Shown piece after piece: positions 2,039 to 64,000 of a DNA stretch of 64,000 nucleotides (the stretch's first letter is position 1; each line of letters begins with the position of its first letter). The translations under genes were made by a program, and so were the position numbers. The stretch lies in IMG/VR virus record IMGVR_UViG_3300043395_003089, positions 25,168-89,167 of that record, one strand, 5' to 3'. The DNA is from a virus. Below the pieces are notes generated by a model that made no database searches, was not told the origin of the DNA, and saw only the letters and a program-made list of their open reading frames with translations.

Positions 2039-2842
2039 ATGGCAAAGACCTGGTGTTCTGTTTGCGGCGAGCGGCAGTTTCACGTTCCTGACAACGAGCT
2101 GCCAACGTGCGCGAATGGTCACGGCGGCGCTCCCGGCCTCGATCAAAGTGAAGCGCAAGCGCTGGGCTACGACACGTCCAAGCGCTTGCGCCGGATCATT
2201 CGAGTGCCGCGCGCCGAGGTGCACAAGCGACCGACGATCGCGAAGCGCTCGCAGGACGAACGCGATCTGTCCGATGCAACGTGCACGCCGAAGTGGCTCG
2301 CGGATTTTCTCTACAAGGCCCGAGGCAATCGGCCGTTCGATCTCGACCCGTGCAGCAACGAACGCTCGCACATCATCGCGCATTGGTCATTCTCGCTAGA
2401 GAAGAAGCTCGACGGGCTCAAGCTTCCGTGGCGCGGTGAAGTCTTCAAGAACAACCCGTTCTCGGCGCCGATGCTGTGGCAAGAGAAAGCCGTCTACGAG
2501 CTGACGCTCGGTCGTTGCACCGAGCTCGTCGAGCTGTGCAAGATGGATCCGAGCACCGAGTGGTGGGGCGTTATCGCGCAGCCGATCGTTGCCGGTGGCG
2601 CGGATTGGAGCCATCGCGAGATCGTCTACACGCCGGACTTGTGGCTGTTCCGCGATCGCATCCAATACGACGAGCACCCGCTGTTGATCGAGAAACGCCG
2701 CTGCGAGATCGCCGAGGGCAAGCGCAAGGGCAACAAGAGCGGCAAGAGCTCGAACAACTTCTGCTCGGCGCTGATCCATCATCGGTTCGACAAGCCGCGC
2801 TTGCCGCTCGAAGAATTCGCCGACCTGTGGATCAGGCCGTAG
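2039..2842 (+). CDS. Phage DNA N6-adenine methyltransferase (Dam-like)
   Basis: 267 residues. The N-terminus has a small zinc-ribbon pattern (Cys6, Cys9, Cys24, His28). The body contains FDLDPC at 100-105 and NNPFS at 138-142 after WRGEVF. This is the order seen in the phage DNA N-6-adenine-methyltransferase family, where the second motif is usually NPPY/F and forms the catalytic loop. The product probably methylates adenine in the element's own DNA, for protection or regulation. It has its own promoter and is followed by the basic micro-protein cluster. The lysine/serine-rich stretch near residue 230 is probably a loop. Confidence 0.8.
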   Translation: MAKTWCSVCGERQFHVPDNELPTCANGHGGAPGLDQSEAQALGYDTSKRLRRIIRVPRAEVHKRPTIAKRSQDERDLSDATCTPKWLADFLYKARGNRPFDLDPCSNERSHIIAHWSFSLEKKLDGLKLPWRGEVFKNNPFSAPMLWQEKAVYELTLGRCTELVELCKMDPSTEWWGVIAQPIVAGGADWSHREIVYTPDLWLFRDRIQYDEHPLLIEKRRCEIAEGKRKGNKSGKSSNNFCSALIHHRFDKPRLPLEEFADLWIRP

Positions 2843-9501: not shown

Positions 9502-9665
9502 TCACGAGCGGAAATAGGCGAGCCGGCCGGGGTTTCACCGGCTGAGGGAGGAACGCGCACCGCTACGCGCCACAATGGGGCCCTCAACAGCGATCGGGAC
9601 GCGACATCGCACGATCGAGGCCTAGCCAGCGAGGGAAGTCTCTGGGGTCGGCGTTCAGCTCAGAA

Positions 9666-9836
9666 GTGGCGGATACGATCGAGTGCGGGGTGCGCGAGAG
9701 TCAGGTCCATTACCTGATGCTTGTCGAGAGCATCGTGCGTGTGGGCACCACGCGGCGGATCGTGTCCGAGGCTGGTTCTACGCCGCTCCTTCCTCGGCGT
9801 CAAGTTTCGGTAGTTCGAGCGCGCCTTTCAGGTTGA
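9666..9836 (+). CDS. Possible 56-aa protein
   Basis: Weakly supported. GTG at 9666 opens a frame reading VHYLMLVESIVRVGTTRR that runs into the 3' end of the opposing gene by 59 bases. No ribosome-binding site or promoter is seen. The rest of 9489-9777 shows only a GCCGG/CCGGC hairpin near 9520 and no other gene. Confidence 0.25.
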   Translation: MADTIECGVRESQVHYLMLVESIVRVGTTRRIVSEAGSTPLLPRRQVSVVRARLSG

Positions 9837-10287
9837 ACTGGAACACGAAGCGCTGGTGTAGTGCCCGCGCCTCGGGCAGCTCGCCGACGAGCCCGACGAT
9901 GTTGTTCGAGCTCTCATCGACGGCGTAGAGCATCGGCCCGTGGCGATGGAACGTCACGATGCGCTCGACGCGTATGGCGTCGAGATCGAGCACCAGCGAC
10001 AGCTCGTGGATCTTGGCCTGTGTGAACGGGCGAATCTCGCCGAGCGTCTCGATCGTGCAGAACGTCGAGTGCTCTGATGGCGGCTTCGGTTCGTAGTAAT
10101 AGCTCGGGCGTGGCGCTCGGTGCGGGCAGACGCCCGACACAGGCGGCACGTGATAGAGCTGATCGTCGATTCCGATGATCCCGGCGTTGCCCTTGTAGAG
10201 CTGAGTCAGGCGCTGCGTGCCGAGGAAGAAATCCAGCGGCACGGCCGGCGCTTCGTCGGCGTCGTCGGGCTCGTCGGTGTCGTGCAC
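9778..10287 (-). CDS. Hypothetical protein (169 aa)
   Basis: Acidic N-terminus (HDTDEPDDADEAP), then a beta-rich domain of unknown family. GTG 10287 is preferred over TTG 10290 because it lies exactly 6 bases after the TAGGCT hexamer. No membrane segment. Role unknown. Confidence 0.7.
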   Translation of the reverse strand: MHDTDEPDDADEAPAVPLDFFLGTQRLTQLYKGNAGIIGIDDQLYHVPPVSGVCPHRAPRPSYYYEPKPPSEHSTFCTIETLGEIRPFTQAKIHELSLVLDLDAIRVERIVTFHRHGPMLYAVDESSNNIVGLVGELPEARALHQRFVFQFNLKGALELPKLDAEEGAA

Positions 10288-10293
10288 CAAGAG

Positions 10294-10316
10294 AGCCTAG
10301 CTCGCTGCTCTGCCAG
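10294..10316 (-). promoter_or_regulatory. TGGCAG-box promoter of leftward gene at 10287
   Basis: CTGGCAGAGCAGCG, AGC, then TAGGCT on the minus strand. The same bases encode the C-terminal RAAS and stop of the upstream gene. Confidence 0.65.
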
Positions 10317-10818
10317 TCCTAGCTACGTCGAAAGCAACCGTAATGCGCGGAGTCTCGTGCGGGTGTTTCTCGACGGAATGCCCGAGCCGCGATGGGAAGA
10401 GAACGAGTAGATCGGTTACTGGCTCGACACGCTCGACGCAAACCTCGTATCTCGACGGGCACCACTCGAAGATCGTTGCGGCACTTCGAGGGCCCCCTGG
10501 TTCCAGGTAAACGATTCCTGACCATGCATAGCGCGCGTTGTGCGTGTGCGCTCGATGATGTGAGCCCAGACGATTCACGACGGCCCAGCCAACGAGCGAG
10601 GCTGGATCAGCTTCGAGCTCAGGTATCGAGGCAAGCAAGGCGCAGAGCCGCGCGTGCAGCCACGTCGTCTTGAGCCACGTAGGCGACGAGCGCCAACCGC
10701 CTCGGTTGTGTGAGGCGTGAGATTCCGTCGACGCGGCGAGCTGCAAGATGTCGGCGCAGAGCGCTTGGCGTTCGAGCTCGCCGAGGCCGAGCGACAAGCG
10801 CTTGATCGGCGACGTCAC
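10297..10818 (-). CDS. Putative 2OG-Fe(II) oxygenase (173 aa)
   Basis: Contains HTHNARYAWSGIVYLEPGG, then LVLFPSRLGHSVEKH and PRITVAFDV. This matches the order in small 2-oxoglutarate/Fe(II) dioxygenases: an N-terminal His metal ligand beside SGxxYL, a later His in LFPSxLxH, and an Arg in RIxVAF that binds 2-oxoglutarate. The start is taken as GTG 10818, in a GTGA overlap with the upstream stop. The substrate is unknown; viral homologues hydroxylate proteins, nucleic acids or small molecules. Confidence 0.7.
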   Translation of the reverse strand: MTSPIKRLSLGLGELERQALCADILQLAASTESHASHNRGGWRSSPTWLKTTWLHARLCALLASIPELEADPASLVGWAVVNRLGSHHRAHTHNARYAWSGIVYLEPGGPRSAATIFEWCPSRYEVCVERVEPVTDLLVLFPSRLGHSVEKHPHETPRITVAFDVARTGRAAS

Positions 10819-11216
10819 TCGGTCGGGTTGTACGTGTCGCACTTGCCGGGGCCCGCGTTGGTGTGCGGAACCCAGAACAGCACGTTCGGTGCCGCAGCGC
10901 CTTCATCGCTGTTCGACAGCACGACATGCACCGTGTTGGTGTCGGTGTCGAGGTAGGGCTCGCCGACGATCGTGATGCTCGCCCATTCGCTCATCGGTGG
11001 TAGCGGGATCACCATGCAACGCGACGCGGGCGTCGTGCCATCGGATGGTGGCGTCGATTGCGCGACACCGAGCGGCGGATCGACGGGGTCCGATGGACCA
11101 CCAGACGTGTTGTAGGCCTGATTGGCGACCTGCAACAGCGTATCCACGTTGGTGTCACCGCCAGGGAGGGAGAGTCGAGCTCGACGCCAATGGAGATTGC
11201 CAGCTTGTGCGCTCAT
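10815..11216 (-). CDS. Hypothetical protein (133 aa)
   Basis: Pro/Thr/Ser-rich N-terminal half, then a beta-rich segment (WASITIVGEPYLDTDTN). Two cysteines. The leaderless-type hexamer is 6 bases upstream and the gene is coupled to the oxygenase by GTGA. No family recognised. Confidence 0.65.
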   Translation of the reverse strand: MSAQAGNLHWRRARLSLPGGDTNVDTLLQVANQAYNTSGGPSDPVDPPLGVAQSTPPSDGTTPASRCMVIPLPPMSEWASITIVGEPYLDTDTNTVHVVLSNSDEGAAAPNVLFWVPHTNAGPGKCDTYNPTE

Positions 11217-11222
11217 GGCACG

Positions 11223-11228
11223 ACGCTA
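11223..11228 (-). promoter_or_regulatory. Leaderless-type promoter (TAGCGT) of gene at 11216
   Basis: GTGCTAGCGT on the minus strand, ending 6 bases before the ATG. Confidence 0.55.
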
Positions 11229-11249
11229 GCACGGCGCCGGAAGTACGCG

Positions 11250-11774
11250 CTAGCGGCGAACGAGCAACGCGGCGATGATCGCGACGACCGAGAGCCCGCC
11301 GATCACGAGGGCCCAGCGCGGGATCCGCGTCGCGTAGACCTGACTGGCAGGCACGGTCGCGACGATCTGTGTCCCCGGATTCGGGCTGACATCGACGGGA
11401 ATCCCCGGTTGCGGCGGGTTGATGCCCGGCACGCTTGGCGCGTTCGGCGGCGCCGGCAACGCGGGCGCTGGGCCACATGCAGGCGTGCCGGTCTTGGCCT
11501 GGAACGCGAGGAGCTGATCGTAGCTGCACGTGCGGCCGTAGCCATCCATCACGACGCACTGCGAACGTCCGTCGATGCAGCCTTGCGACATGCAGACGCC
11601 GTTGTTCGAGACATAGCCATAGCCGCAGCCGCCACCAACCGTCAGCCCGCCGCCGGTCGTGGCGTTCGGTGGCATCGTCGACGTTGGAGGCCTCGCTGCG
11701 CCCCCGCGCGAGACGGTCATCGGGTACGAGGCCGGCATGTACTGCGCGGGGCCGTTGAGGTTCAGCTGCAACAT
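11250..11774 (-). CDS. Cys- and Pro-rich protein with C-terminal membrane anchor (174 aa)
   Basis: MLQLNLNG start, a Gly/Cys-rich middle (six cysteines, likely disulphides), a proline-rich linker, then WALVIGGLSVVAIIAALLVRR as a tail anchor. The layout (short LQL start, linker, C-terminal span with basic end) matches the membrane proteins at 49-52 kb. Candidate virion membrane protein with an exposed disulphide-bonded domain. Confidence 0.7.
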   Translation of the reverse strand: MLQLNLNGPAQYMPASYPMTVSRGGAARPPTSTMPPNATTGGGLTVGGGCGYGYVSNNGVCMSQGCIDGRSQCVVMDGYGRTCSYDQLLAFQAKTGTPACGPAPALPAPPNAPSVPGINPPQPGIPVDVSPNPGTQIVATVPASQVYATRIPRWALVIGGLSVVAIIAALLVRR

Positions 11775-11780
11775 GCTGTC

Positions 11781-11786
11781 AGCCTA
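11781..11786 (-). promoter_or_regulatory. Leaderless-type promoter (TAGGCT) of gene at 11774
   Basis: GTGATAGGCTGACAGC then ATG on the minus strand; 6-base gap. Confidence 0.65.
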
Positions 11787-12149
11787 TCACGGCACGCGCT
11801 TGTGCTCACCCTCGTGGTTGAGCTTGAGCCCGCAACGATGTCGGGTCTTGCACTCGCCGCAGTAGACGTGTTCGCGGCACTGATCGAGCATCCGGCCGTA
11901 TTCGTCGATCGGCATCAGGTTGTGCCCGAGATGCTTGCGAAACCACGCCGGGTCGATTGACCCGTAGCACCCGCTGTAGCCCAAGCGGAAGTTGAGTTGA
12001 TCGCCAAGCTCGGTGGATAGCTCGGCGAGCGCTGCGATTGCGTCAGCATGCTTGATCAAGAGCAACATGCGATCGTCTTGGTGATTCGCGTCGTCGAAGT
12101 GGTGGATCTCATCGCAATCGACGCACTTGATGTTCCAGTCCGTGCTCAT
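11787..12149 (-). CDS. Zinc-site protein (120 aa)
   Basis: ATG 12149 overlaps the previous stop (ATGA). CVDC near the N-terminus and CGECKTRHRCG near the C-terminus suggest metal binding. A helical region lies between them. Function unknown; last gene of the long leftward run. Confidence 0.65.
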   Translation of the reverse strand: MSTDWNIKCVDCDEIHHFDDANHQDDRMLLLIKHADAIAALAELSTELGDQLNFRLGYSGCYGSIDPAWFRKHLGHNLMPIDEYGRMLDQCREHVYCGECKTRHRCGLKLNHEGEHKRVP

Positions 12150-12355: not shown

Positions 12356-12639
12356 GGCGCGACCTTGCGACGACGCACGAGGCTCGCGCCGTCGTAGATC
12401 AAACACGCCTTGTCGAGCGCCTTCGATGCCGGGCACTCCGCGTGGATCTTGCAATCGCAGTGGGCGACCCACGCCGACGCTTGACGCTCATCTTCGGGCC
12501 ACTCGGCGTCTTCCTTCGAGATCCCGAAGAACGCGAGGCCTGGTTTTCCGTCGTCGGCCTTCCACCGGCCGTTCGGAAAGAGCTTGCGGACGTCGATCGC
12601 GCCGCTTGGTGGTCGACACAGCGGGTGTTTTTTGAGCAT
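12352..12639 (-). CDS. Hypothetical protein with Cys cluster (95 aa)
   Basis: AAGG lies at a good distance before ATG 12639 (MLKKHPLCRPPSG); an ATG two codons earlier is too close to it. Contains HCDCKIHAEC, a possible metal site. Overlaps the upstream gene by 152 bases in another frame, and the downstream gene by GTGA. Confidence 0.6.
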   Translation of the reverse strand: MLKKHPLCRPPSGAIDVRKLFPNGRWKADDGKPGLAFFGISKEDAEWPEDERQASAWVAHCDCKIHAECPASKALDKACLIYDGASLVRRRKVAP

Positions 12640-17864: not shown

Positions 17865-18343
17865 TGGAAGACTTCCAGCTTGACGGTGAACGTCGTCTCG
17901 CTCGAATTCGTCAGCGTGCCCGAGCCCGAGTAGCGCTCGGTGCGTGTGCCGCACAAGATCGTCAACGCGCCATCGTAGAACGACGCGCTCCCTCGCGAGA
18001 CGCCGCAGACCTGCGATGCCGCCGGTTCGAGCGAGCCCGTGCAGACGTCGCTACCCGAGCACGTCGGCGTGCTCTGCGTGTCGCACTTCGACAGCACGAA
18101 ATCGGCCCCCGGCGCGAGCGCGACGGTCGCGAAGCGATTGATCGTCACGTCGCGCGAATTGTCGGTAGAGACGTGGTGGACTTCGCGCATGAACGGCTGA
18201 CAGTCGAGCGGCATCTCGACGAGCCCCGGAGTCGGCGGCGGCATCACGTGTGGCGCGTCGGTGATCGGGTTGCCGGCGTCGTCGAGCGGCGTTGCGCTCG
18301 AACCACAGCCAAGGACGAATAGGGCGATTGCGATGATCTTCAT
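17861..18343 (-). CDS. Predicted lipoprotein (160 aa)
   Basis: Starts at ATG 18343 with MKIIAIALFVLGC: a short signal peptide ending in the lipobox LFVLGC, so Cys13 is the expected lipidation site. The region after it (SSATPLDDAGNP) resembles myxobacterial lipoproteins in composition. The mature part is beta-rich with five more cysteines. Exported and anchored to a membrane after expression in the host. Possible surface-exclusion or lysogenic function (inference). Confidence 0.75.
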   Translation of the reverse strand: MKIIAIALFVLGCGSSATPLDDAGNPITDAPHVMPPPTPGLVEMPLDCQPFMREVHHVSTDNSRDVTINRFATVALAPGADFVLSKCDTQSTPTCSGSDVCTGSLEPAASQVCGVSRGSASFYDGALTILCGTRTERYSGSGTLTNSSETTFTVKLEVFQ

Positions 18344-18570
18344 GGATGCCTCTTGCAAGGAAGTTGGTTGCCGCAGATCCGCTCGTCGGGATCGTTGGTG
18401 TAGTTATCGACGATGTACGCGCAACGGCCGGGTGGATGCGGCAACACCGTGCGCACCATGCCGTTCCCGTCGACGCAGAACATGATCCGCGTGGTCTCGT
18501 CACGCCACGTGGATTGTCCGAGGCCGTCGAGATCGTTCGGCTGCCAATCGATGAATTGCGAGCGAGCCAT
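18340..18570 (-). CDS. Hypothetical protein (76 aa)
   Basis: ATGA overlap with the lipoprotein gene. Three cysteines and many Asp/Asn residues (VDNYTNDPDERICGNQ). Unknown family. Confidence 0.6.
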   Translation of the reverse strand: MARSQFIDWQPNDLDGLGQSTWRDETTRIMFCVDGNGMVRTVLPHPPGRCAYIVDNYTNDPDERICGNQLPCKRHP

Positions 18571-18574
18571 CAGC

Positions 18575-18664
18575 TCAAACAGGAATGGGGTATGTCTCTT
18601 TCGCTGGGGTTGTCGTGTCGTCGCTCAAGTCGCGCTCGAAGGATTTGACGCTCGGGGCCGACAT
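18575..18664 (-). CDS. 29-aa micro-protein
   Basis: AGGGG lies just upstream of ATG 18664 (MSAPSVKSFERDL), and the stop is 4 bases before the next start at 18570. The spacing fits the operon. Product unknown. Confidence 0.45.
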   Translation of the reverse strand: MSAPSVKSFERDLSDDTTTPAKETYPIPV

Positions 18665-18708
18665 ACCCCTATGCATCCCCGAGGGTTTGATCCTTCGGGC
18701 GCGGCTTG

Positions 18709-18724
18709 AACAGCGAGCGCTGTT
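18709..18724 (-). terminator. Short hairpin after gene at 18733
   Basis: AACAGC-gagc-GCTGTT, a 6-base stem with a 4-base loop, directly downstream of the leftward gene ending at 18733. There is no T tract, so a weak or non-canonical terminator at best. Confidence 0.3.
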
Positions 18725-18732
18725 CGTCAGAT

Positions 18733-19305
18733 CTAGATCGCGTATTTCGACAGCGCGTGCTTGGTCCAGAACGCGATCGCCTCGGGCTTGCGCACGTCGG
18801 GGATCTTGGGGTCGGTCGGCTCTTGCGGCGCGAGCGGGCCCCCGTAGCACGTGTAAAGGATGCACGCGTGTTCCTCGTGTGGCCCGGCGATGACGGTGAT
18901 CTGCCGGGTCGGCCGCATCGGCAGATCGATCAGCCGTGATTCCCAGCCACGCGCGCCGCGCTTGCCGAGCGTGATCGCGCCCGTGAACGTCGGAAGCTGC
19001 ACGAACATGCTCGCGATGCCGCCGCGCTTGAACGCTTCCTCCATGCGCTCGACGTTCGCGAGCATGATCGAGCCCGTCGGCATGAGGTAATCACCGGGCC
19101 CCAGCGGCATCAACTCGGTGCCGTTCAGGATCTCGGGGTCGCCCATCGCCGGGCCCCACAGCCCGCACGGCACGGTGCCTAGCTCGGGCGGTAGTTCGAT
19201 CGTCTCGATGAAGAACGCGCGGCGATCCTCGAAACGCGTGAACAGGAAATCGATCTGTGCCGAGTTGAGGCCGTGATCGAGGTGGGATTCTCGGTGTCGT
19301 TGCAT
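18733..19305 (-). CDS. Hypothetical protein (190 aa)
   Basis: Start at ATG 19305 overlapping the upstream stop by one base (TGATG). Mixed alpha/beta with MGDPEILNGTELMPLGPGDY in the middle. No recognised motif or membrane span. Confidence 0.65.
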   Translation of the reverse strand: MQRHRESHLDHGLNSAQIDFLFTRFEDRRAFFIETIELPPELGTVPCGLWGPAMGDPEILNGTELMPLGPGDYLMPTGSIMLANVERMEEAFKRGGIASMFVQLPTFTGAITLGKRGARGWESRLIDLPMRPTRQITVIAGPHEEHACILYTCYGGPLAPQEPTDPKIPDVRKPEAIAFWTKHALSKYAI

Positions 19306-19517
19306 CACTTGATCCTTTCGATGATTTCGAGCGCAGATTGCAGCGTGCGCACGCGCTGAATGTCTTTGTGAGAAGTCGCGATCCAGCAATCGATCGCGTG
19401 GCCACTCGAATGAACGCGTGCGCCGCGGTACACGCCGGTTACGTCGGCGCTAACACACGAGCACAAGTTTTCGAGCGCGGCGTGCAAGATCTTGGCGAGC
19501 GCCTTGGAGAGCTTCAT
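19305..19517 (-). CDS. Hypothetical protein (70 aa)
   Basis: ATG 19517 in an ATGA overlap with the 25-residue gene. Amphipathic N-terminal helix (MKLSKALAKILHAALEN), three cysteines. Unknown. Confidence 0.6.
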   Translation of the reverse strand: MKLSKALAKILHAALENLCSCVSADVTGVYRGARVHSSGHAIDCWIATSHKDIQRVRTLQSALEIIERIK

Positions 19518-19591
19518 ACGCAGCGCTCCAACGGCTCGATCTCGCCCGCGTCTAGGCATCGATAGAGGGCCATGCCGATCGCGGGCTTCAC
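19514..19591 (-). CDS. 25-aa micro-gene coupled on both sides
   Basis: GTG 19591 lies in a GTGA overlap with the stop at 19588, and its own stop shares ATGA with the next gene. Sequence MKPAIGMALYRCLDAGEIEP. The double coupling argues that it is translated, possibly to keep ribosomes moving through the operon. Confidence 0.45.
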   Translation of the reverse strand: MKPAIGMALYRCLDAGEIEPLERCV

Positions 19592-20148
19592 GACACGTGC
19601 CTCCACGCGGTGATGTAGAGGTAGCCGTGCGAGCCGTTCGGGTTGGCCACGATCGTGTATTCGCCGTCGGTGAAGCGCACGAGCGCCTCGGGGCCGTCCA
19701 TCTCGGGATGCCGCGAGCCCATCGCGCGGCAGAGCGTCACGAGCATCGGGCGCGCGGTGTCGTCGATCCACTTGCCCATCGTCTGCACGCGAGTCTTGCC
19801 CTCGGCGTCGAGCGCACCGAACGAGGACCAGCCCATGCGATCCCAGAGCAGATCGATCGACGGCTCGTAGGTCGTGCTCGTCAGCTTGCGCCCGCGGCTG
19901 ATCTTGATCTTGCCGGTCGCGGTGTGCACGGGCTTGGTGACGGAACGCCACGAGTAGATCGCGCGAGCGCCCCATGCGAGCGTCACGCCCTCGGGAATCG
20001 CGTGGGTCAGTCCCCACGGCGGTTTGATGAACGTGCGTTCGTGCTCGGGCGCGACCTTGCTGGTTTCGATCGGGCACTTCTCTTGAAGATGCGCGGTGCC
20101 GGTAGTTCCCGGACAATCGTCGCGCCCGCATTCGTAGATCGGTTTCAT
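19588..20148 (-). CDS. Hypothetical protein (186 aa)
   Basis: Start ATG 20148 (MKPIYECGRDDCPG) with two N-terminal cysteines that may bind metal. The rest is alpha/beta (TSTTYEPSIDLLWDRMGW). It follows a 36-base leader that is repeated before the gene at 20983. Function unknown. Confidence 0.65.
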   Translation of the reverse strand: MKPIYECGRDDCPGTTGTAHLQEKCPIETSKVAPEHERTFIKPPWGLTHAIPEGVTLAWGARAIYSWRSVTKPVHTATGKIKISRGRKLTSTTYEPSIDLLWDRMGWSSFGALDAEGKTRVQTMGKWIDDTARPMLVTLCRAMGSRHPEMDGPEALVRFTDGEYTIVANPNGSHGYLYITAWRHVS

Positions 20149-20184
20149 GGGGGTATGTCCTTGGTTGTGGTTGCGAGCTAGAGC
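20149..20184 (-). promoter_or_regulatory. Conserved 36-base leader, copy 1
   Basis: On the minus strand GCTCTAGCTCGCAACCAC, then AAGGACATACC, then the ATG at 20148. Nearly the same sequence precedes the ATG at 20983. Confidence 0.45.
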
Positions 20185-20228
20185 TACTCGGCCGCGCCGC
20201 GAGCTGTCTCGCGGCACCGACGAACGCG

Positions 20229-20486
20229 CTAGGTCAGATACGGCACGCGCCCGGAGCGCGAAGCGAACCAATAGATCAACTGATCGACGGTGAGATTGCC
20301 CGGCACGCGCTCGGGCCATGCGAGCGTCCACACGTCGTCATCGTCGGGGCGCACGGCGAAGGCTTCGAGCCGACGCGGCTTGTAGTAGACATACAGCGCG
20401 AGCGTCGGATCGCGCATCAACAGCGCGTGCGCGGCGCGTGCCGCTCGTGCGGTCTCGTTGTTGTGGAACAGTGCATCGCTCGACAT
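20229..20486 (-). CDS. Hypothetical protein (85 aa)
   Basis: MSSDALFHNNET start two bases after the upstream gene. Helical N-terminal half and a beta hairpin-like C-terminus. No known family. Confidence 0.6.
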   Translation of the reverse strand: MSSDALFHNNETARAARAAHALLMRDPTLALYVYYKPRRLEAFAVRPDDDDVWTLAWPERVPGNLTVDQLIYWFASRSGRVPYLT

Positions 20487-20488
20487 GG

Positions 20489-20983
20489 CTAGCCCTCCAT
20501 CGCTTGGACAGAGACTCGGTTCTCGATCAGCTCGATCACCGGAGCGATCACGTCGTTCGTGGTCAGCTCGTCAGCCTCGGGCTCGAAAGGCTCGTATAGC
20601 TCACGAGCGAATTCCTGCGCCGCTTCGAGCAACGTGCTCGAATCGAGATCGTCGTGCGCGTCGATCTCGATCTGGTACCGCGTGAAACCCTCGGGGGGCG
20701 CTTCGCCCTTGTCATGCGGCTTCGCGAGCGTTTGCCCCGTCGCGCGCTCGGCGAGCGACACGAGCCCCTCGGCGAGCGATTCGAGGTACTCGCCTTGATC
20801 CCACGAATCGCCGCATGAAGGGCCCCAGTCGGCCGTGACGAACGGGTGATCGTCGTCGGGGCGATGCACGAGCACCACGAGTTGGTGCCCGACGTTGATC
20901 GAGCCCTTGGACTTGAGCATGGCGCCCGTGACGCGCGGCAACGCCGCGATCACCGAGTGCCCGTTGAGTGTCTGAGGAATCAT
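20489..20983 (-). CDS. Hypothetical protein (164 aa)
   Basis: Start ATG 20983 (MIPQTLNGHSVIAALPR) directly after the conserved leader. Alpha/beta with an acidic C-terminal half (EPFEPEADELTTND). No recognised motif. Confidence 0.65.
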   Translation of the reverse strand: MIPQTLNGHSVIAALPRVTGAMLKSKGSINVGHQLVVLVHRPDDDHPFVTADWGPSCGDSWDQGEYLESLAEGLVSLAERATGQTLAKPHDKGEAPPEGFTRYQIEIDAHDDLDSSTLLEAAQEFARELYEPFEPEADELTTNDVIAPVIELIENRVSVQAMEG

Positions 20984-21019
20984 GAGGTATGTCTTTCGTT
21001 GGTGGTTGCGAGCTAGAGC
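20984..21019 (-). promoter_or_regulatory. Conserved 36-base leader, copy 2
   Basis: GCTCTAGCTCGCAACCAC then AAAGACATACC before the ATG at 20983; matches the copy at 20149-20184 at about 31 of 36 positions. Confidence 0.45.
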
Positions 21020-21046
21020 CTCTAGTGAGCGCACGAGCCATCGCGG

Positions 21047-21130
21047 CTAGGCTTTCCCGTTCTTTGACCGCACGTTCAAGCGATGGCCGGTTCGCGGATC
21101 CGGCGACGCTTGCCCGCTTGTGATGTTCAA
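21047..21130 (-). CDS. Possible 27-aa peptide
   Basis: TTG 21130 opens a basic, coding-like frame (SPDPRTGHRLNVRSKN) that begins 12 bases after the upstream stop. No clear ribosome-binding site; weakly supported. Confidence 0.3.
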   Translation of the reverse strand: MNITSGQASPDPRTGHRLNVRSKNGKA

Positions 21131-21142
21131 CTCGTGCGCTCG

Positions 21143-21454
21143 CTACAGCCTCCAGCGCAGCGACGCGGCGACGCGCACGCGCTCTAAGTTGAACGGGTTC
21201 TCCGCAGCGTGCGGTGTGTCCGCGAACATCGCCGCTTCATCGAACGAGCGCCCGCCGACAAGGGCCGCGAGGCGCACGACTTCGCGTTGAAGTCTCGCGC
21301 GCTCGTCGATCGCGTACTGCGGTTGCTCGGTGTCAGGGATGACGGCGCGCGGGTCGCCCTCGGGGTACGAGAGATCGATCCACCGTTGTTCGTAGACTCG
21401 CAACTGCATCATGGCAGTCTTGAGCGTGGCGAGATGTCGGTTGTAGCGGATCAT
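21143..21454 (-). CDS. Hypothetical protein (103 aa)
   Basis: ATG 21454 in an ATGA overlap. Helical N-terminus, then repeated Arg/Glu helices. Unknown. Confidence 0.6.
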   Translation of the reverse strand: MIRYNRHLATLKTAMMQLRVYEQRWIDLSYPEGDPRAVIPDTEQPQYAIDERARLQREVVRLAALVGGRSFDEAAMFADTPHAAENPFNLERVRVAASLRWRL

Positions 21455-21630
21455 GATCGAGTGCCCCCTGCGCACCACGCGCGATAGAGGCGCGCGGCGC
21501 GCTTGTTCTTGGTCCAGTCCGGCACGAAGCCACCCCGCGCGATCCACGCCGCGAGATCGCGGCATGCGTCGCGCCGCTCGGTCGCGTCGCTCGCGTCGCC
21601 GATACGGTTAAGGCACGCTTGCGGGTCCAT
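21451..21630 (-). CDS. Hypothetical helical protein (59 aa)
   Basis: Start ATG 21630 (MDPQACLNRIGDASDATERRDAC), 2 bases after the upstream stop. Looks like a small helical bundle with three cysteines. Function unknown. Confidence 0.6.
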   Translation of the reverse strand: MDPQACLNRIGDASDATERRDACRDLAAWIARGGFVPDWTKNKRAARLYRAWCAGGTRS

Positions 21631-21632
21631 CG

Positions 21633-21941
21633 CTACACGCGCCCTTTCCAGGCTTCCGGCTTGTCGCCGCGATCCCACGCGTCGCGGAGCACGCGAGCGC
21701 TCGCGCCCCACAAATCATCGTCGGTCGCCTCGCGCCCGAGCACGAGCACGAGCCACGCGCCGAACGTGGGCCGTTCTTCGATCGCGACGCGATGCGTGTA
21801 GCCCTTGTCGCGGATCATGGCGCGATGGTTGTTCGCGGCGTGCTCGGCTTGCTTCGCCGTCATCCAACGCGAGGTATGCACGGGCGCGGGGGCGCCCTCG
21901 ACGCGAACCGTCACGCGATGCGTAGCGTTGTCGCTCGCCAC
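21633..21941 (-). CDS. Hypothetical protein (102 aa)
   Basis: GTG 21941 lies 4 bases after the stop of the 682-residue gene. Mixed alpha/beta with RWMTAKQAEHAANNHRAMIR in the centre. No family recognised. Confidence 0.6.
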   Translation of the reverse strand: MASDNATHRVTVRVEGAPAPVHTSRWMTAKQAEHAANNHRAMIRDKGYTHRVAIEERPTFGAWLVLVLGREATDDDLWGASARVLRDAWDRGDKPEAWKGRV

Positions 21942-21945
21942 GGGC

Positions 21946-23994
21946 CTACTCCAACTCCAACATCGCGCCACGAAGCGCGGTGTCATCGGTGAGCGGTTCG
22001 AGCGCGCGGCGCAGGTCGTTGATCAGCGCTTTCGCGTTGGTGACCGACTCGGCGCCGAGCACGGTCTCATAGCCAGCGACGCGCGCCGCGACCGTGCCGA
22101 TCTCGCGCAAGAGGCGCGCGGCGATCGTGGGACTCACGGTCGCGCGCTTGTACGCCGCTTCGCCCTCGGCATCAATATAGGCTTCGCTCGCGTTGTGCCG
22201 CTTCGCCGCTTTCTCGCGCGCTTTCTCGCGCGCCGCTTCGCGCGCCTTGATGGTCTGCTCGGCGTAGTCATCGGCGATCGCTTGCGCCTCGACGGTGAGA
22301 CCGCGGGTCAGCGACGAGAACAGATCCGGGCCCGTCGTGACGCTGATCGTTTCGTGGTCGCCCCACAAAGGCGAGATCGCCGCGATCAGCGCGCGAACGG
22401 CTGTCGCGTGGCCCGGCGGGACGTACCACACGTGACCGCGCTTGACCGCGCCGTGCCGCGTGCGCAGCACGCGACCGAGCCACGGGGTGAGCACGCGCGA
22501 CGTCAGAGCCACGCTCGCGACGCTCGCGCTGTAGGCGTCGCGGACCATGTCCGCGAGCCGCGGGTTGCCGCGGAACTTGAGCAAGCCGGATTCCGCGTCG
22601 CCCTCGACGAGATCGACGAACAGCTCAGCCGTACCGTAGGCATCGCCCGGCAACGCCGCGCGATCACCGCCGAGGGCGCGACCCACGAGCCACGTAGCCT
22701 TGACGCCCGCGGGCGTCGCGCTCTTGCTGAGGCGCTTAACGTCCCAATCGCGCCCGCGGAGCGTATCGACGGCAAGCCCCGCGTAGTGTTCCGCGCTCGG
22801 CACTCCGGGCGCGTCGCTCTCGCGCTCGATCGCGATCAGCCCGTCGGTGACCTTACCGTGCTCCGTCGAGCCGGCACCCGTCCAAGAGACCTGCAACCAA
22901 CCATCGGCCGCGATAGCGCCCGCGATCAAGTCGCGCTCCGACAGCAAGCGCTGACGCTCGGTCAACGTCGCGCCGCGCGTGGCGTTCGTCGGCACGAACG
23001 CGCGTTGTGCACGGGGCAGGGCGAAGATCCCGATGCTCGCGCCGCTGTCGACGGACGCGCTACCGTTGCCGCGTGTCGTCGGTTCCACGTAGGCCGCTTC
23101 GCGTTGCGCCGTCGCGATATTCGCGCCCTCGGTTGCGATGTTCGCGAGCGCGCTTTCGACGGCCGCGATCTCGCTCGCGAGACCCTGGATCGCCGTGTCG
23201 TCGCGGAGTGCCGCGGGGATCATGCTCGCGGGGATCGCATCGGGCATGAGGGACGAGAGCGGAATCGCGCCCTCGGGCGTGTTGATCACGGGCGCCGTGC
23301 GCTCGTCGCGAACCGTCACGACGGGCGCGCTACCCGCAGCGACACGAGGGCGCGGCGCCATATCGGCGTCGGTCGTATCGCGGACGGTCACGTAGGCCAC
23401 GCCGGGCTCGGAGTGCACGATTCCCGTGACGGTCTTACGCTGCGACTGGCCACCGTTCGCGCGCTGCACGCGCAGCACGGTCCCGACGGTGACAGGATCG
23501 GTCGGGTCGTGGTCGACCCGCGCGCCCCACATATCGGGCGACACGCGGCGCGCTTTCTCGCTACCCGTCGCCGGGCGGAACGAGGCGCCCTGCGCCATGA
23601 GGGGCACCCACGTGGCCGGGCGCACCACGGGAACAGACAGCACGGGTGCGCTCGGGGCGTCCGTCACGACGGGGATCGCCTGTCGTTCGGTGGCCGGCGG
23701 GGGCGCGCTCGCGCTCGGCGCGCTACGCGCCGCTTGGATCGCCTCGAACTTGGCGTTGTACGCCTCGGTAAGCAGCGCCCGATGGGCCTTCGAGAGCGCT
23801 TCCACGCGCTCGCGCTCCGGGCCCCCCTTGCTGTAGGGGCGCACGAGCGCTTGGAGGGCCGCGAGCGCGATCTCCGGGGGGAGCGGCACGATCGCGCCGA
23901 TCGCCACGAGCAGCGTCGCGAGCCACGCGGGCGGGTCGAGATCGAGCATGAACGTTTCGTTGTTGTCGGTCGGGGGGAGCGCGGGAGTGGCCAT
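21946..23994 (-). CDS. Large early protein, possibly DUF6744-like (682 aa)
   Basis: The first gene of the leftward run. ATG 23994 is preferred because GAAAGG lies about 12 bases upstream; ATG 24021 is possible. The N-terminus is Pro/Ala-rich and low-complexity. The second half (about 340-690) has RGHVWYVPPGHATAVRALIAAISPLWG, which reminds me of actinophage DUF6744 proteins, and a Lys/Glu-rich helical stretch (AREAAREKAREKAAKRHN). The function is unknown. Driven by a sigma-70-type promoter at 24045-24073, it is likely expressed early. Confidence 0.6.
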   Translation of the reverse strand: MATPALPPTDNNETFMLDLDPPAWLATLLVAIGAIVPLPPEIALAALQALVRPYSKGGPERERVEALSKAHRALLTEAYNAKFEAIQAARSAPSASAPPPATERQAIPVVTDAPSAPVLSVPVVRPATWVPLMAQGASFRPATGSEKARRVSPDMWGARVDHDPTDPVTVGTVLRVQRANGGQSQRKTVTGIVHSEPGVAYVTVRDTTDADMAPRPRVAAGSAPVVTVRDERTAPVINTPEGAIPLSSLMPDAIPASMIPAALRDDTAIQGLASEIAAVESALANIATEGANIATAQREAAYVEPTTRGNGSASVDSGASIGIFALPRAQRAFVPTNATRGATLTERQRLLSERDLIAGAIAADGWLQVSWTGAGSTEHGKVTDGLIAIERESDAPGVPSAEHYAGLAVDTLRGRDWDVKRLSKSATPAGVKATWLVGRALGGDRAALPGDAYGTAELFVDLVEGDAESGLLKFRGNPRLADMVRDAYSASVASVALTSRVLTPWLGRVLRTRHGAVKRGHVWYVPPGHATAVRALIAAISPLWGDHETISVTTGPDLFSSLTRGLTVEAQAIADDYAEQTIKAREAAREKAREKAAKRHNASEAYIDAEGEAAYKRATVSPTIAARLLREIGTVAARVAGYETVLGAESVTNAKALINDLRRALEPLTDDTALRGAMLELE

Positions 23995-41834: not shown

Positions 41835-42539
41835 TTAGACCACGTTGCGGCGGATCAGGCCGTACAGGTACGACTTGACATCCGCGAACGTCAGCGCCGT
41901 CGAGTTGTCCGACGCCGGCTGGTTGATCACCAGCGGGGCCTCGGGCGAGAACGACAGCTTGTACGCGAGGTTCTCGCGCAGCCAGATCGGCAGGACGAGC
42001 GCGTTGCGATCGCGCGGCGACGGGACGCCGTTCTGCGCGAGCTCGAACGAGCTGTTGGTCGAGAACACGTTGTAACCGTGTCCCTGCGGGTAGTCCTGCA
42101 TCACGCCATACGTGTACTTCTTGTCGTTGTACGTGAATTCGAGGTACGTCACGCGATCGACCGAGAACAGCGTCTGGAGCTGCGGCGGGTTCGAGAGCGC
42201 GCCCGAACCGTCGGCGAGCACGACCGCGCCGGCCGTGGTCGCGCGCATCACGCGGACCATCATGATGCCGATGCCGTAGATGTACATCTCCCACGACATC
42301 GGGAGACCGGTGTCACCCGAGCGGGGGACGTTGGTGTCGACGCGGGTCGCCGCGCGCGTACCACCGGGGATCGGCTGCGAGCGGCCCGAGACGAACGCCT
42401 CGACGGGCGACGTCTGGCCGTTCACGAGCTGAACGGTCGAATAGAGCTTGTCATCGATCCAGTCCTCGATCGAAACGGTCTGACCGTTCGGGAGGGTGAT
42501 CGTCGTGGTTCCTGGTGCAACGCCAACAGTGCCGGCCAT
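41835..42539 (-). CDS. Candidate major capsid protein (234 aa)
   Basis: ATG 42539 follows AGGAGAA at ideal spacing and a leader of five hairpins, the signs of a very highly expressed gene. The protein is beta-rich: VGVAPGTTTITL at 5-16, MSWEMYIYGIGIMMVRVMRA at 81-100, VTYLEFTYNDKKYTYGV, LPIWLRENLAYKLSF, then a short helix at the end. No transmembrane segment. Placed between a Gly-rich membrane protein and the second capsid candidate. Jelly-roll capsid is my best guess; no database check was possible. Confidence 0.45.
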   Translation of the reverse strand: MAGTVGVAPGTTTITLPNGQTVSIEDWIDDKLYSTVQLVNGQTSPVEAFVSGRSQPIPGGTRAATRVDTNVPRSGDTGLPMSWEMYIYGIGIMMVRVMRATTAGAVVLADGSGALSNPPQLQTLFSVDRVTYLEFTYNDKKYTYGVMQDYPQGHGYNVFSTNSSFELAQNGVPSPRDRNALVLPIWLRENLAYKLSFSPEAPLVINQPASDNSTALTFADVKSYLYGLIRRNVV

Positions 42540-50804: not shown

Positions 50805-51058
50805 GTGCCGCGATTGTCAGGTTCACCAACAGCGTCGGCGTCGCGCCGGGCACGACGACGATGCAGCTCGGTCAGATCGGCGGCACCCGGCGCTGGGATA
50901 TGTACCAGGACATGATCGCGCTCAACGACGCGTCGATCCCGCCGCCGCCGCTTCAAGACCGGCCAATCCGTTGGGATATCGTCGCCATCATCGGCGGCGG
51001 GTCGCTGATTGTCGCGCTCGGCGCGGCGTTCCTCGCGGCTGCATTTGCCCGGCGATGA
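50801..51058 (+). CDS. Tail-anchored protein sharing VGVAPGTTT with the capsid candidate (85 aa)
   Basis: GVAPGTTTMQLGQ near the N-terminus matches GVAPGTTTITLPN in the protein at 41835. RWDMYQDMIALND follows, then RWDIVAIIGGGSLIVALG as anchor. A second copy of most of the gene lies at 51733-51949. Perhaps a membrane link to the capsid (inference). Confidence 0.65.
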   Translation: MSAAIVRFTNSVGVAPGTTTMQLGQIGGTRRWDMYQDMIALNDASIPPPPLQDRPIRWDIVAIIGGGSLIVALGAAFLAAAFARR

Positions 51059-51443: not shown

Positions 51444-51668
51444 ATGGCAAAGCGCTGGACTCCTACCGCGAAGACTCTCGACAACGTGATCAAGCGCGTC
51501 AAAGTCGGTGACGCGATTTCGAATCCTGTGTGCGCCGCACGAACCGGCACTCACGCGAAGCGTTCGGCTGCGTATCAGCTCGCGGATCGCATCGATGCCA
51601 AGCTCGATGCGAAAGGGCTTCGCATCGACAACACGGCGCTCTGCATCGGCTACGTCGAGCGCAAGTAG
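51444..51668 (+). CDS. Small basic protein (74 aa)
   Basis: Lys/Arg-rich, two cysteines, a helical centre (AAYQLADRIDAKLDAKGL). Own leaderless-type promoter. Unknown; nucleic-acid binding is possible. Confidence 0.65.
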   Translation: MAKRWTPTAKTLDNVIKRVKVGDAISNPVCAARTGTHAKRSAAYQLADRIDAKLDAKGLRIDNTALCIGYVERK

Positions 51669-51732
51669 GTTGTGATAGCCTAGCGGCATGCTTCGCAGCG
51701 TGTTCGCACCCTACGGCAAGATCCCGGGCTCG
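51662..51732 (+). repeat. 71-base exact direct repeat, copy 1
   Basis: Identical to 52162-52232 (offset exactly 500). Holds the end of a gene, the promoter TAGCCT and the first 15 codons of the gene at 52188. Confidence 0.85.
51676..51681 (+). promoter_or_regulatory. Leaderless-type promoter (TAGCCT), duplicated copy
   Basis: 6 bases before ATG 51688; the gene it drives is broken by the duplication junction. Confidence 0.5.
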
Positions 51733-51952
51733 CGTCGCGCCGGGCACGACGACGATGCAACTCGGTCAGATCGGCGGCACCCGGCGCTGGGATCTGTACC
51801 AGGACATGATCTCGCTCAACGACGCGTCGATCCCACCGCCGCCGCTTCAAGACCGGCCGATCCGTTGGGATATCGTCGCCATCATCGGTGGCGGGTCGCT
51901 GATCGTCGCGCTCGGCGCGGCCTTCCTCGCGGCTGCATTCGCCCGACGATAG
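51688..51952 (+). pseudogene. Chimeric duplicate: start of gene 52188 joined to tail of gene 50801
   Basis: The first 15 codons copy the gene at 52188 (MLRSVFAPYGKIPGS). At 51733 the sequence switches, out of frame, to a near-identical copy of 50839-51055. In its own frame the copy could be translated from ATG 51755 (MQLGQIGGTRRWDLY) with the intact membrane anchor, so a 65-residue product is possible. The last bases diverge from the parent. A recombination product that may still make a short anchor. Confidence 0.7.
51733..51949 (+). repeat. About 217-base duplication of 50839-51055
   Basis: About 95% identical to the parent segment (differences such as CTG for ATG in WDLY and TCG for GCG in ISLND). 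The offset is 894 bases. Confidence 0.75.
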
Positions 51953-51970: not shown

Positions 51971-52168
51971 ATGGCGACGTTTCGCACGTATTACAACACT
52001 GGCTCCGTGCGCAAAGGAACCGACCGCGCGCAGACGACATTTCATCGCTCGAAGCGTGCAGCGATGAAGGAAGCTTGTAGGCTATCAAAGTTCACCAAGG
52101 GCTACGTGACCGTCGATCGAAACGGGATCGAAGTTGGCTCGTGCTTCAGGGGTAAGCCGGTCAAGTAG
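51971..52168 (+). CDS. Small basic protein (65 aa)
   Basis: Arg/Lys-rich (SVRKGTDRAQTTFHRSKRAAMK), two cysteines, a VTVDRNGIEVG beta hairpin. Own leaderless-type promoter, and the next promoter begins at its stop. Unknown. Confidence 0.65.
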   Translation: MATFRTYYNTGSVRKGTDRAQTTFHRSKRAAMKEACRLSKFTKGYVTVDRNGIEVGSCFRGKPVK

Positions 52169-52232
52169 GTTGTGATAGCCTAGCGGCATGCTTCGCAGCG
52201 TGTTCGCACCCTACGGCAAGATCCCGGGCTCG
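52162..52232 (+). repeat. 71-base exact direct repeat, copy 2
   Basis: Identical to 51662-51732; this is the intact context (gene 52188). Confidence 0.85.
52176..52181 (+). promoter_or_regulatory. Leaderless-type promoter (TAGCCT) of gene at 52188
   Basis: GTGATAGCCTAGCGGC then ATG; 6-base gap. Confidence 0.65.
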
Positions 52233-61687: not shown

Positions 61688-61981
61688 GTGAACGTCCCCA
61701 ACGTCGCCCCCAACATGCCTCACGTGCTGCCCGGCATGCCGAACGCAGCCCCCAACGCGCCCGTTGCGATGCCGTCGCAGCAAGCCGGCCAAGTGCAGCT
61801 CGGCTGCATGGGCTGCGGTCAGAAGGGCCTCGGCTCATACTGGGAGCGTGTGCCGTTGTGGGCCAAGATCGCTGTGCCGATCGGTGTGATCACCGCGGTC
61901 ATCGTGATCGCCGTCGCCGTCACGAATCGGCGCCGCGTACTGCCCTACGAGGCCTTCGCCGAGGAAGAGATCGACTACTAG
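61688..61981 (+). CDS. Single-span membrane protein with GLG motif (97 aa)
   Basis: A Pro/Met/Asn-rich N-terminus, QLGCMGCGQKGLGSYWERVPLW, then AKIAVPIGVITAVIVIAVAV as a span and an acidic tail. Shares LG...GLG...W before the span with the block at 49-51 kb. GTG start. Ends on a shared CTAG with the opposing gene. Confidence 0.65.
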   Translation: MNVPNVAPNMPHVLPGMPNAAPNAPVAMPSQQAGQVQLGCMGCGQKGLGSYWERVPLWAKIAVPIGVITAVIVIAVAVTNRRRVLPYEAFAEEEIDY

Positions 61982-62808
61982 CCCTCGGCCGGGTCATCGG
62001 TCGCCCATCCGGGCGGCACGTCGTCTGGGTCGAGCTTGAAGGCCTTTCGAGGCGGCGCCGCGGGTTGCTCCGGGGCCGTGTGCACAGCTGGCGGTGGCGG
62101 CTTGGCGAGCACTTCCTCGCGCTTCGGGAGCCGCTTGCTGAATGTCGGCTCGATGGTGCACGAGCCCGGCCCGAAAATCACGTCGTAGGTACCCGAGATC
62201 ACTGCATGACGCTTGATCTCCGCGATCAGCTCCTCGTCGGTCTTGTCAGCGGCACCCCACTGGACCGTATCCTTGCGCCAGCGCTCCATTTCTGCGGCGA
62301 GCTCGCCATACGCGAGGTTATTCGCTCGGTGGTACATGTATCGTCTGTGCGCGGCTTCCTCGGGGCTCTGATACGTTCCGATGACGATCGTTTTCCCGGA
62401 GATATCGCGTCCCATTGCCCGGAACCCCTGCCCGTTGGCGTAAACACCTTCGTAACCACTCTTAAGCTTTGGGTTCTTGTGGAGCACGTCTAGATCGATC
62501 GCGGAGGTTGCCGTGCTCGGGATCGCGCCGAAGTTTCCACCCTTGAGCGTGGCGATGGCCTTAGCGAACGCGCGGTCAGGTAGCCAGTCGGCGTCGCCGC
62601 CCACAAGCAGGTCGTCGACGTGTCGCATGAGCATCGCGAGCCCGATTTGGGATGCTTGATCATCCGAGTTGATTCGGATGAGTGAACCGAAAGTCCTGGC
62701 CGCTTGCTGCCCCACAGCATTCAGTAGGGCCCAAAGCTCTGGGGACAGGGTTATCTTTGCGTGGTATCTACCGTGTTCGTCACGGAATGTCGCCGGTCGC
62801 CTCGCCAT
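61978..62808 (-). CDS. AP2-domain DNA-binding protein (276 aa)
   Basis: Start ATG 62808 (MARRPATFRDEHGRYHAKIT). About residues 120-175 (GYEGVYANGQGFRAMGRDISGKTIVIGTYQSPEEAAHRR) are an AP2-type DNA-binding domain. The first 60 residues are a helical or ribbon-like region, and the C-terminus is Pro-rich. No HNH motif, so probably a regulator or an inactivated relative of homing nucleases. Confidence 0.65.
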   Translation of the reverse strand: MARRPATFRDEHGRYHAKITLSPELWALLNAVGQQAARTFGSLIRINSDDQASQIGLAMLMRHVDDLLVGGDADWLPDRAFAKAIATLKGGNFGAIPSTATSAIDLDVLHKNPKLKSGYEGVYANGQGFRAMGRDISGKTIVIGTYQSPEEAAHRRYMYHRANNLAYGELAAEMERWRKDTVQWGAADKTDEELIAEIKRHAVISGTYDVIFGPGSCTIEPTFSKRLPKREEVLAKPPPPAVHTAPEQPAAPPRKAFKLDPDDVPPGWATDDPAEG

Positions 62809-62978
62809 GGGGTACATTTAGCCCATAATTCGGACGTCTCGCAACCGAGCTAGAGAGGGATCGGTATGGGATCCGTCACAGTCACGTCTGAGCCGAACTG
62901 GATTCTGGCGTTCGTTCGAGCTCGGATCCGTGATCCTTGAAGCGTAACTATTCGATCTTGTTCTTGACCTAAAAAGCG

Positions 62979-63113
62979 TTTTATGCTCCCATCGTTTTTT
63001 CGATCTCTACTAATTCGTTAGAGACGACCAAAATAATATTAGAAATAAGAGAGAATTATTTTGATCGTTCTAAACGAATTGGCGCGTTCCGAAAAAACGA
63101 TGGGAGCATAAAA
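62979..63113. repeat. 135-base AT-rich inverted repeat (24-base perfect outer arms)
   Basis: Outer arms TTTTATGCTCCCATCGTTTT... (62979-63002) and their exact complement (63090-63113). Inside is a second, imperfect pair around AATTCGTT/AACGAATT with about 24 of 29 matches. Centre near 63046. The block is about 70% A+T inside a GC-rich genome, in the 317-base divergent gap 62809-63125. The remainder of the gap has GGATCCG and CTCGGATCC words but nothing else I can name. Candidate origin, mobile-element remnant or invertible segment. Confidence 0.8.
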
Positions 63114-63125
63114 AGGATTTTGTGT

Positions 63126-63782
63126 ATGGGTAGAAAGCGCAACGAAGAAATCCCGCAACATCCAACAGTTGGCCGCGAAGTCGTCGTCTTCACGAAGTAC
63201 GGCGCCGATCGCTACGGCGTCACCGTGACGTGCCCGCAGTGCCAAGCTGTGAGGGTCAAGGCCCTGACGGAGATTCGCGCGGCGGTCGCACGCGGCGGCT
63301 TTACGGGGCGCTGCCTGTTCTGTGCCGATCCCAAGCCTAGGGGCCATCTCGGGCTGGGGCGCTTTCGGCTCCCCGATGGTTTCATCGCGATCGATGAACG
63401 CGGGATCGTCGATGGCGCCGAGCTCGCGCTCCATCGGCGGATCCGCGGCTGGCCGGCGACCGGCCCAGCATGGATCGTTGAGCAGCATTGGCTCATGGCC
63501 AAGTTGCTCGGGCGCCCGCTGCACAAATACGAGCGCGTCGTGCATCGCAACGGCCGGCGCGACGACAACCGGCTCGAAAACTTGGAGCTGGTGATCGTCT
63601 ACCCGGACGGCAGAACGCGCCCGGTGTTGGAGGCCCTCACCAGCGCTCGAAGCCTGATCGAGCGCTACGAGGCCGAGGAGCAGCTCCTACGTGAAGCTCA
63701 AGAGTCGCGGCCCCAAGAGGCCGACTTGAGCGGTCCGTCGACGGCGGCGAGCACCTCATCGAATGTGAGCCCGGCCGAGTAG
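63126..63782 (+). CDS. HNH endonuclease with zinc ribbon (218 aa)
   Basis: N-terminal CPQC/CLFC ribbon, then EQHWLMAKLLGRPLHKYERVVHRNGRRDDNRLENLEL, an HNH_3-type nuclease motif. Start ATG 63126 with AAGGA upstream, just after the inverted repeat. A mobile nuclease or a replication/packaging cutter. Its end overlaps the opposing partial gene by 85 bases. Confidence 0.75.
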   Translation: MGRKRNEEIPQHPTVGREVVVFTKYGADRYGVTVTCPQCQAVRVKALTEIRAAVARGGFTGRCLFCADPKPRGHLGLGRFRLPDGFIAIDERGIVDGAELALHRRIRGWPATGPAWIVEQHWLMAKLLGRPLHKYERVVHRNGRRDDNRLENLELVIVYPDGRTRPVLEALTSARSLIERYEAEEQLLREAQESRPQEADLSGPSTAASTSSNVSPAE

Positions 63783-64000
63783 TCGGTGTCGTCGTGCCGA
63801 CCGGCGAGAACGCCGTAGTTCTGGTGGTCGCTGAATGCGTTGGGCCCGAAACGAAACCCGTGGCCACCCTGGAATTGCTGGGGCCCATGCCCCGAGATCG
63901 TGCGCGAGCGCATCACGCGCCGCCCGTTGCAGAGCAACACGTATTCGTTCGGCTTGGCACCGTCGGTGTAGCCCTGGCCGTACGGCTGCGCGTAGACCGT
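63698..64000 (-). CDS. Partial gene, C-terminal 100 residues, running off the right edge
   Basis: Open minus-strand frame from the window edge (PYGQGYTDGAKPNEY) to the stop at 63698. Gly/Asn/Gln-rich, ending GPLKSASWGRDS. Possibly a structural protein; start lies outside the window. Not recognised. Confidence 0.5.
   Translation of the reverse strand, partial: TVYAQPYGQGYTDGAKPNEYVLLCNGRRVMRSRTISGHGPQQFQGGHGFRFGPNAFSDHQNYGVLAGRHDDTDYSAGLTFDEVLAAVDGPLKSASWGRDS

Follow-up and report, generated by a model that had tools for sequence, protein, structure and literature searches.

What purpose does a 135-base near-palindrome serve in the genome of an uncultured virus? The question is raised by positions 62979-63113 of the window, by which we mean the whole 64,000-nucleotide stretch analyzed here (bases 25168-89167 of the 89,167-base IMG/VR record IMGVR_UViG_3300043395_003089; G000, L098). 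To our knowledge, the origins of uncultured viruses have seldom been located. An earlier note on this DNA, made from the sequence alone, had listed an origin of replication, a MITE-like remnant, a promoter inverted by the tyrosine recombinase encoded at 13446, and a replication-termination structure as options. Our analysis indicates that the virus probably starts replication at this palindrome, which would form the core of a stem-loop origin; this reading is based on hairpins of similar size in related viruses, which mostly lie where the strand bias changes sign.

The palindrome and its neighborhood

The elements of the palindrome are listed in Table 1. All 24 positions of the outer arms pair (24/24), and the outer pairing can be extended to 32 nucleotides at 91% (62971-63002 with 63090-63121). 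The palindrome, with 66% A+T against a genomic G+C content of about 62%, lies in a divergent gap, flanked by genes at 61978-62817 (minus strand) and 63120/63126-63782 (plus strand); the coordinates, symmetry, and setting described in the earlier note were thus confirmed. Folded as single-stranded DNA, it reaches -43 kcal/mol compared with -15.0 +/- 3.1 kcal/mol in shuffled sequences (z -9.1; equaled by none of 200 shuffles), and folded as RNA it yields a z of -8.3. No other inverted repeat in the 89,167-base record is as strong; the runner-up perfect arms measure 16 bp over a 394-bp span.

Table 1. Coordinates of the palindrome, of genes in the window, and of hairpins in four related records.
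Feature	Position	Strand	Remark
Left outer arm	62979-63002	+	perfect, 24 nt
Right outer arm	63090-63113	-	perfect, 24 nt
Left inner arm	63012-63037	+	26 nt, 81% complementary to right inner arm
Right inner arm	63055-63080	-	partner of 63012-63037
Central loop	63038-63054	.	17 nt, AT-rich, asymmetric
Unpaired internal loop, left side, between outer and inner stem	63003-63011	.	faces 63081-63089
Non-coding gap containing the putative replication origin	62818-63125	.	from relatives' skew and gap-folding rank
AP2-like DNA-binding protein gene (predicted)	61978-62817	-	phrog_99; homologs in relatives; alternative start 62805
HNH_3-type endonuclease gene	63126-63782	+	AAGGA ribosome-binding-like site 63113-63117 touches right outer arm
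Conserved 234-residue protein gene	41838-42539	-	no Pfam or PHROG match; 20 records
G002 hairpin	107684-107834		upstream of AP2-like gene
G004 hairpin	12405-12532		upstream of AP2-like gene
G012 hairpin	L121 locus, 2206-2337		upstream of AP2-like gene; inner arms perfect
G021 hairpin	L201		upstream of AP2-like gene

A search for further copies within the element, suggested earlier, returned none, the palindrome being single-copy in its own genome. The gap sequence matched nothing among INPHARED phages and PLSDB plasmids, and a 16-mer from the outer arm gave 16 matches across IMG/VR, none of them with a hairpin. Other repeats in the window comprise a 219-bp direct repeat of 95% identity (approximately 50838-51056 and 51732-51950) and a perfect 71-bp repeat (near 51662-51732 and 52162-52232).

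The two ends of the record overlap by about 370 bp at 93% identity, which makes the map effectively circular and the 0.9-kb distance between the palindrome and the contig end an accident of linearization. The overlap (window 63628-64000 with L098:1-370) contains a diverged stretch of about 100 bases within one coding frame, which suggests strain variation at the circular join.

The product of 61978-62817 is assigned to AP2-like proteins on the basis of phrog_99 and an alignment showing conserved AP2-like motifs; by Pfam the assignment is weak, with AP2 matched in one of eight family members and in the G013 protein. Homologs were found in 7 of 13 relatives at the first search, and more were recovered by profile, which retrieved no cellular relatives from genome contigs. 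The structure model (pLDDT 66) was too poor for a fold search; together with one sub-threshold CopG match, it points to a possible N-terminal ribbon-helix-helix module. We regard this protein as a candidate origin-binding or regulatory protein. The HNH gene on the other side is absent from the first 13 relatives and is probably a later arrival; viruses retrieved through its product are unrelated, and the few that carry other hairpins have none resembling that of the window. On the same side of the hairpin, G014 carries an endonuclease VII-type gene (L242:11066-11662), apparently non-homologous to the HNH_3-type gene, as if, in these two viruses, the site attracted endonuclease genes.

Hairpins in related viruses

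Relatives were gathered using the conserved 234-residue protein, which yielded 13 and then 20 IMG/VR records (33-88% identity). This protein is possibly structural, and our guess is that it may be the major capsid protein of an undescribed lineage; its AlphaFold model (pLDDT 46) was too poor for a fold search. The lineage presumably comprises bacterial viruses of approximately 70-220 kb, whose structural genes resemble those of no known family. In total, 21 records were examined, some of them fragments, with genes called by a simple codon-score method, and hairpins were found in 12.

Besides the window's genome, 11 other records carry a hairpin at the corresponding spot. These hairpins span 120-190 bp and are mostly two-tier, the usual layout being an outer stem, an internal loop, an inner stem, and a loop. 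Their sequences are nearly unrelated between genomes, although those of G002 and G003 resemble each other, and the palindrome sequence itself was not found in the first 13 relatives. Conservation in relatives, the lack of which the earlier note would have counted against its reading, holds for structure and place, not for sequence. Likewise, the observation that the outer arms are better kept than the inner ones applies to the window's palindrome and fails as a rule, since the inner arms are perfect in G012 and both tiers are near-perfect in G020. The least regular hairpins are those of G003 and G011.

In nine genomes (G000, G002, G003, G004, G011, G012, G013, G014, and G021) the hairpin lies beside the AP2-like gene, in most of them 80-170 bp upstream of it. 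No AP2 homolog was recognized in G015, G019, and G020, the strongest palindromes of which occupy corresponding places: in G015 and G019 they adjoin a small membrane-protein gene that elsewhere precedes the site, and in G020 a helix-turn-helix gene flanks the hairpin on one side and a D5/DUF5906-like gene on the other, the hairpin being just 3' of the latter. At the corresponding place in G015 (L247, approximately 2250-2370) we observed a near-perfect loopless 48-bp palindrome, AAAAAACGCTCACTTTTTTACATCGATGTAAAAAAGTGAGCGTTTTTT, inside CTACGAGGG-type repeats.

To rank the hairpin gaps, every non-coding gap of at least 150 bp was compared by folding energy with dinucleotide shuffles in 11 genomes (G021 was left out, as a gene call covers the site). 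The hairpin gap ranked first in 8 of the 11: G000 (of 36 gaps), G002 (51), G004 (29), G013 (29), and G014 (31), as well as G015 (41), G019 (40), and G020 (27), although the last three had been picked for the strongest hairpin in the genome, so that, for these, independent evidence comes from position and skew only. It ranked second in G003 (of 52) and G012 (39), and the G011 hairpin tied for first by inverted-repeat score but did not rank near the top by folding energy. These results come from a centre scan and the gap-wise shuffle test; whole-genome folding in 60-base steps under-samples such lengths and missed the hairpin of the window. No clearly significant hairpin was found in G005 and G007, which have good AP2 homologs, and no clear one in G006, G009, G010, G016, and G018, the AP2 matches of G009 and G010 being weak. 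Among the hairpin loci, neither an iteron common to all gaps nor a conserved box was found.

Strand composition around the hairpins

The distance between the hairpin and the uncorrected cumulative GC-skew minimum is 0.5 kb (G020), 1.2 kb (G019), 2.8 kb (G015), 3.7 kb (G002), 4 kb (G014), 4.9 kb (G011), and 5 kb (G003); in the window's own genome it is about 21 kb. Since skew can follow gene direction, third-position (GC3) skew was examined gene by gene. Genes that run in the direction of forks leaving the hairpin exceed head-on genes in coding-strand GC3 skew, on either side of the hairpin, in 8 of 11 genomes (one of the 16 side-wise comparisons rests on very few bases). In the same eight, the orientation-corrected cumulative GC3-skew minimum falls within 6% of genome length from the hairpin (Kolmogorov-Smirnov, KS, p = 8.5e-5). 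The corrected skew is individually significant in seven of these eight; in G002 the minimum is well placed, but p = 0.49.

Corrected skew is not significant in G012 or in the window's own genome (p = 0.14), so that the origin claim for the latter rests on its relatives. The skew analysis proposed in the earlier note speaks for an origin in most of the relatives and gives no significant signal in the virus from which the question arose. In G013, a skew maximum lies exactly at the hairpin. A maximum was also seen at the AP2 gene in G009 and G010, and this subgroup of three may have either a reversed skew sign or a terminus at the locus.

A probable stem-loop origin and its alternatives

Position, cross-genome structural conservation, and the strand skew of relatives support the origin option. 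The hairpins show generic traits of origins: they are AT-rich (individual A+T values range from about 0.48 to 0.66, so that some are exceptions), non-coding, and, apart from G013, near replication genes, and the strand composition switches at the hairpin in 8 of 11 genomes, with a maximum in G013 and no significant signal in the window's own genome. An alternative, which we consider unlikely, is that the palindrome is a cruciform-type regulatory element, a binding or switch site through which the AP2-like protein governs neighboring promoters, unrelated to the start of replication. Such an element would fit both the DNA-binding AP2-like core of the neighboring protein and the location of the hairpin upstream of its gene in most of the nine genomes having both. 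However, it gives no reason to expect hairpins at skew switch points or in the three genomes without a recognized AP2 homolog, and operators normally are short, with a sequence preserved from one close homolog to the next. Distinctly unlikely, in our view, is a replication terminus, fork-arrest, packaging-start, or dimer-resolution site. A skew switch would be expected there too, and the maxima in G013, G009, and G010 agree with it, so that the termination structure suggested earlier keeps some ground in this subgroup; nevertheless, eight genomes show a minimum rather than a maximum at the hairpin, and replication genes lie nearby in most. A hairpin-telomere junction should be a perfect palindrome, which the asymmetric loop and imperfect inner arms do not fit; the asymmetry of the centre led us to reject a hairpin telomere.

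A structured non-coding RNA or 5' leader (a decoy, an antisense RNA, or a control element of the HNH gene) appears decidedly improbable. The RNA fold is strong, and the ribosome-binding-like site of the HNH gene abuts the stem; however, that gene is not present in the relatives, and arm mismatches counted in a fixed orientation comprise 28 G-T and 28 A-C, so that the excess of G-U over A-C expected from wobble tolerance is not seen. No strand folds consistently better across the hairpins. The palindrome shares with intrinsic terminators and Rfam families the form of an intergenic stem-loop, but it differs from them in that no terminator pattern (a GC-rich stem followed by a T-run) was found at the hairpin and no Rfam family matched at gathering score. 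Only generic sub-threshold matches to plant miRNA precursors were obtained, which are the usual response to any long hairpin. Equal mismatch counts, no better strand, and no terminator or Rfam family favor selection on DNA pairing, and suggest that the arms are selected as DNA rather than RNA. A MITE-like transposon remnant or an invertible segment is very improbable. The outer arms are perfect, and the TA on each side can be read as a mariner-type target duplication, but the palindrome is single-copy and has no phage or plasmid match, none of its 16-base matches in other viruses has a hairpin, and corresponding places in relatives hold unrelated sequences of similar architecture; the MITE-like option is not supported. 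The invertible promoter fares no better, the integrase at 13446 being separated from the palindrome by about 40 kb of the circular map and the hairpins of relatives having no common arm sequence for a recombinase to recognize; the integrase gene itself is conserved in 16 relatives.

If the palindrome is a stem-loop origin, it would extrude, or be unwound, into hairpins under negative supercoiling, possibly helped by the AP2-like DNA-binding protein encoded alongside in most genomes. The exposed single strands could then serve for loading of the viral AAA+ ATPase/helicase and primase, and forks would depart from the hairpin in both directions. We propose that shape is recognized rather than sequence, which would leave the arm sequences free to turn over while pairing is kept. 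Starting from a single palindrome, the analysis arrived at an element that is kept as a structure, not as a sequence, and that coincides with the switch in strand skew in many viruses of what seems to be an undescribed lineage. It can now be tested whether the shape of a DNA hairpin can by itself define an origin, and whether such a hairpin has its reader in a small AP2-like protein. It is conceivable, although we hold it with considerable doubt, that these hairpins represent a new class of viral origin, a shape-recognized two-tier palindrome with a dedicated AP2-like reader (possibly with an N-terminal ribbon-helix-helix).

The closest documented case is the crenarchaeal plasmid pRN1, in which a stem-loop of about 100 nucleotides in a non-coding gap is reported as required for replication; similar stem-loops occur in other pRN plasmids and are predicted in several phages, including BIP-1, and the pRN1/BIP-1 stem-loop sits 3' of the primase/helicase gene (PMC4234260). 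A large stem-loop in a non-coding gap, conserved as a structure among relatives, is found here too, and in G020 alone it also lies 3' of a D5/DUF5906-like gene. In contrast, the other hairpins of the lineage lie several kb from the ATPase/helicase genes, usually adjoining the AP2-like gene, and are 120-190 bp long, mostly two-tier, and located in viruses of approximately 70-140 kb. The likeness drawn here is one of stem-loop and, in G020, of layout, and does not extend to a claim of homology with the pRN1 replication protein, ORF904.

Among viruses, the OriL of herpes simplex virus lies between divergent genes, and herpes origins contain conserved boxes read by the OBP/UL9 helicase. OriS of the same virus is a palindrome with an AT-rich centre (PMC12543377). 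The resemblance in palindrome, AT-rich centre, and divergent-gene gap is offered as an analogy only, and herpes origins differ in having conserved boxes, whereas no conserved box was found at the hairpins of the lineage. The ssiA and ssiB sites of RSF1010 are hairpins exposed at the origin and read by primase (PMC4234260). Hairpins at an origin, a putative one here, may be the common trait, whereas the RSF1010 sites are short, conserved, and accompanied by iterons, of which none is common to all gaps here.

The distance from the hairpin to an SNF2-type helicase or AAA gene is approximately 4-12 kb in the relatives, with the exception of G013 (21-23 kb), and the G020 protein beside the hairpin matches Pfam DUF5906/D5_N/Pox_D5. 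In the window's virus, genes for an intein-bearing ATPase, an SNF2-type helicase, a PD-(D/E)XK nuclease, AAA_24, DUF669, and polymerase-like proteins lie beyond the contig join, several of these functions being putative; the intein-split ATPase has no host-domain Pfam match. Apparent inteins were observed in three replication genes of this genome, L098:6220-8859 (ATPase-like), 9519-12128 (SNF2-type helicase), and 17920-22788 (uracil-glycosylase/polymerase-like), with Pfam matches to Hint/homing-endonuclease domains in the first and to a LAGLIDADG domain in the second.
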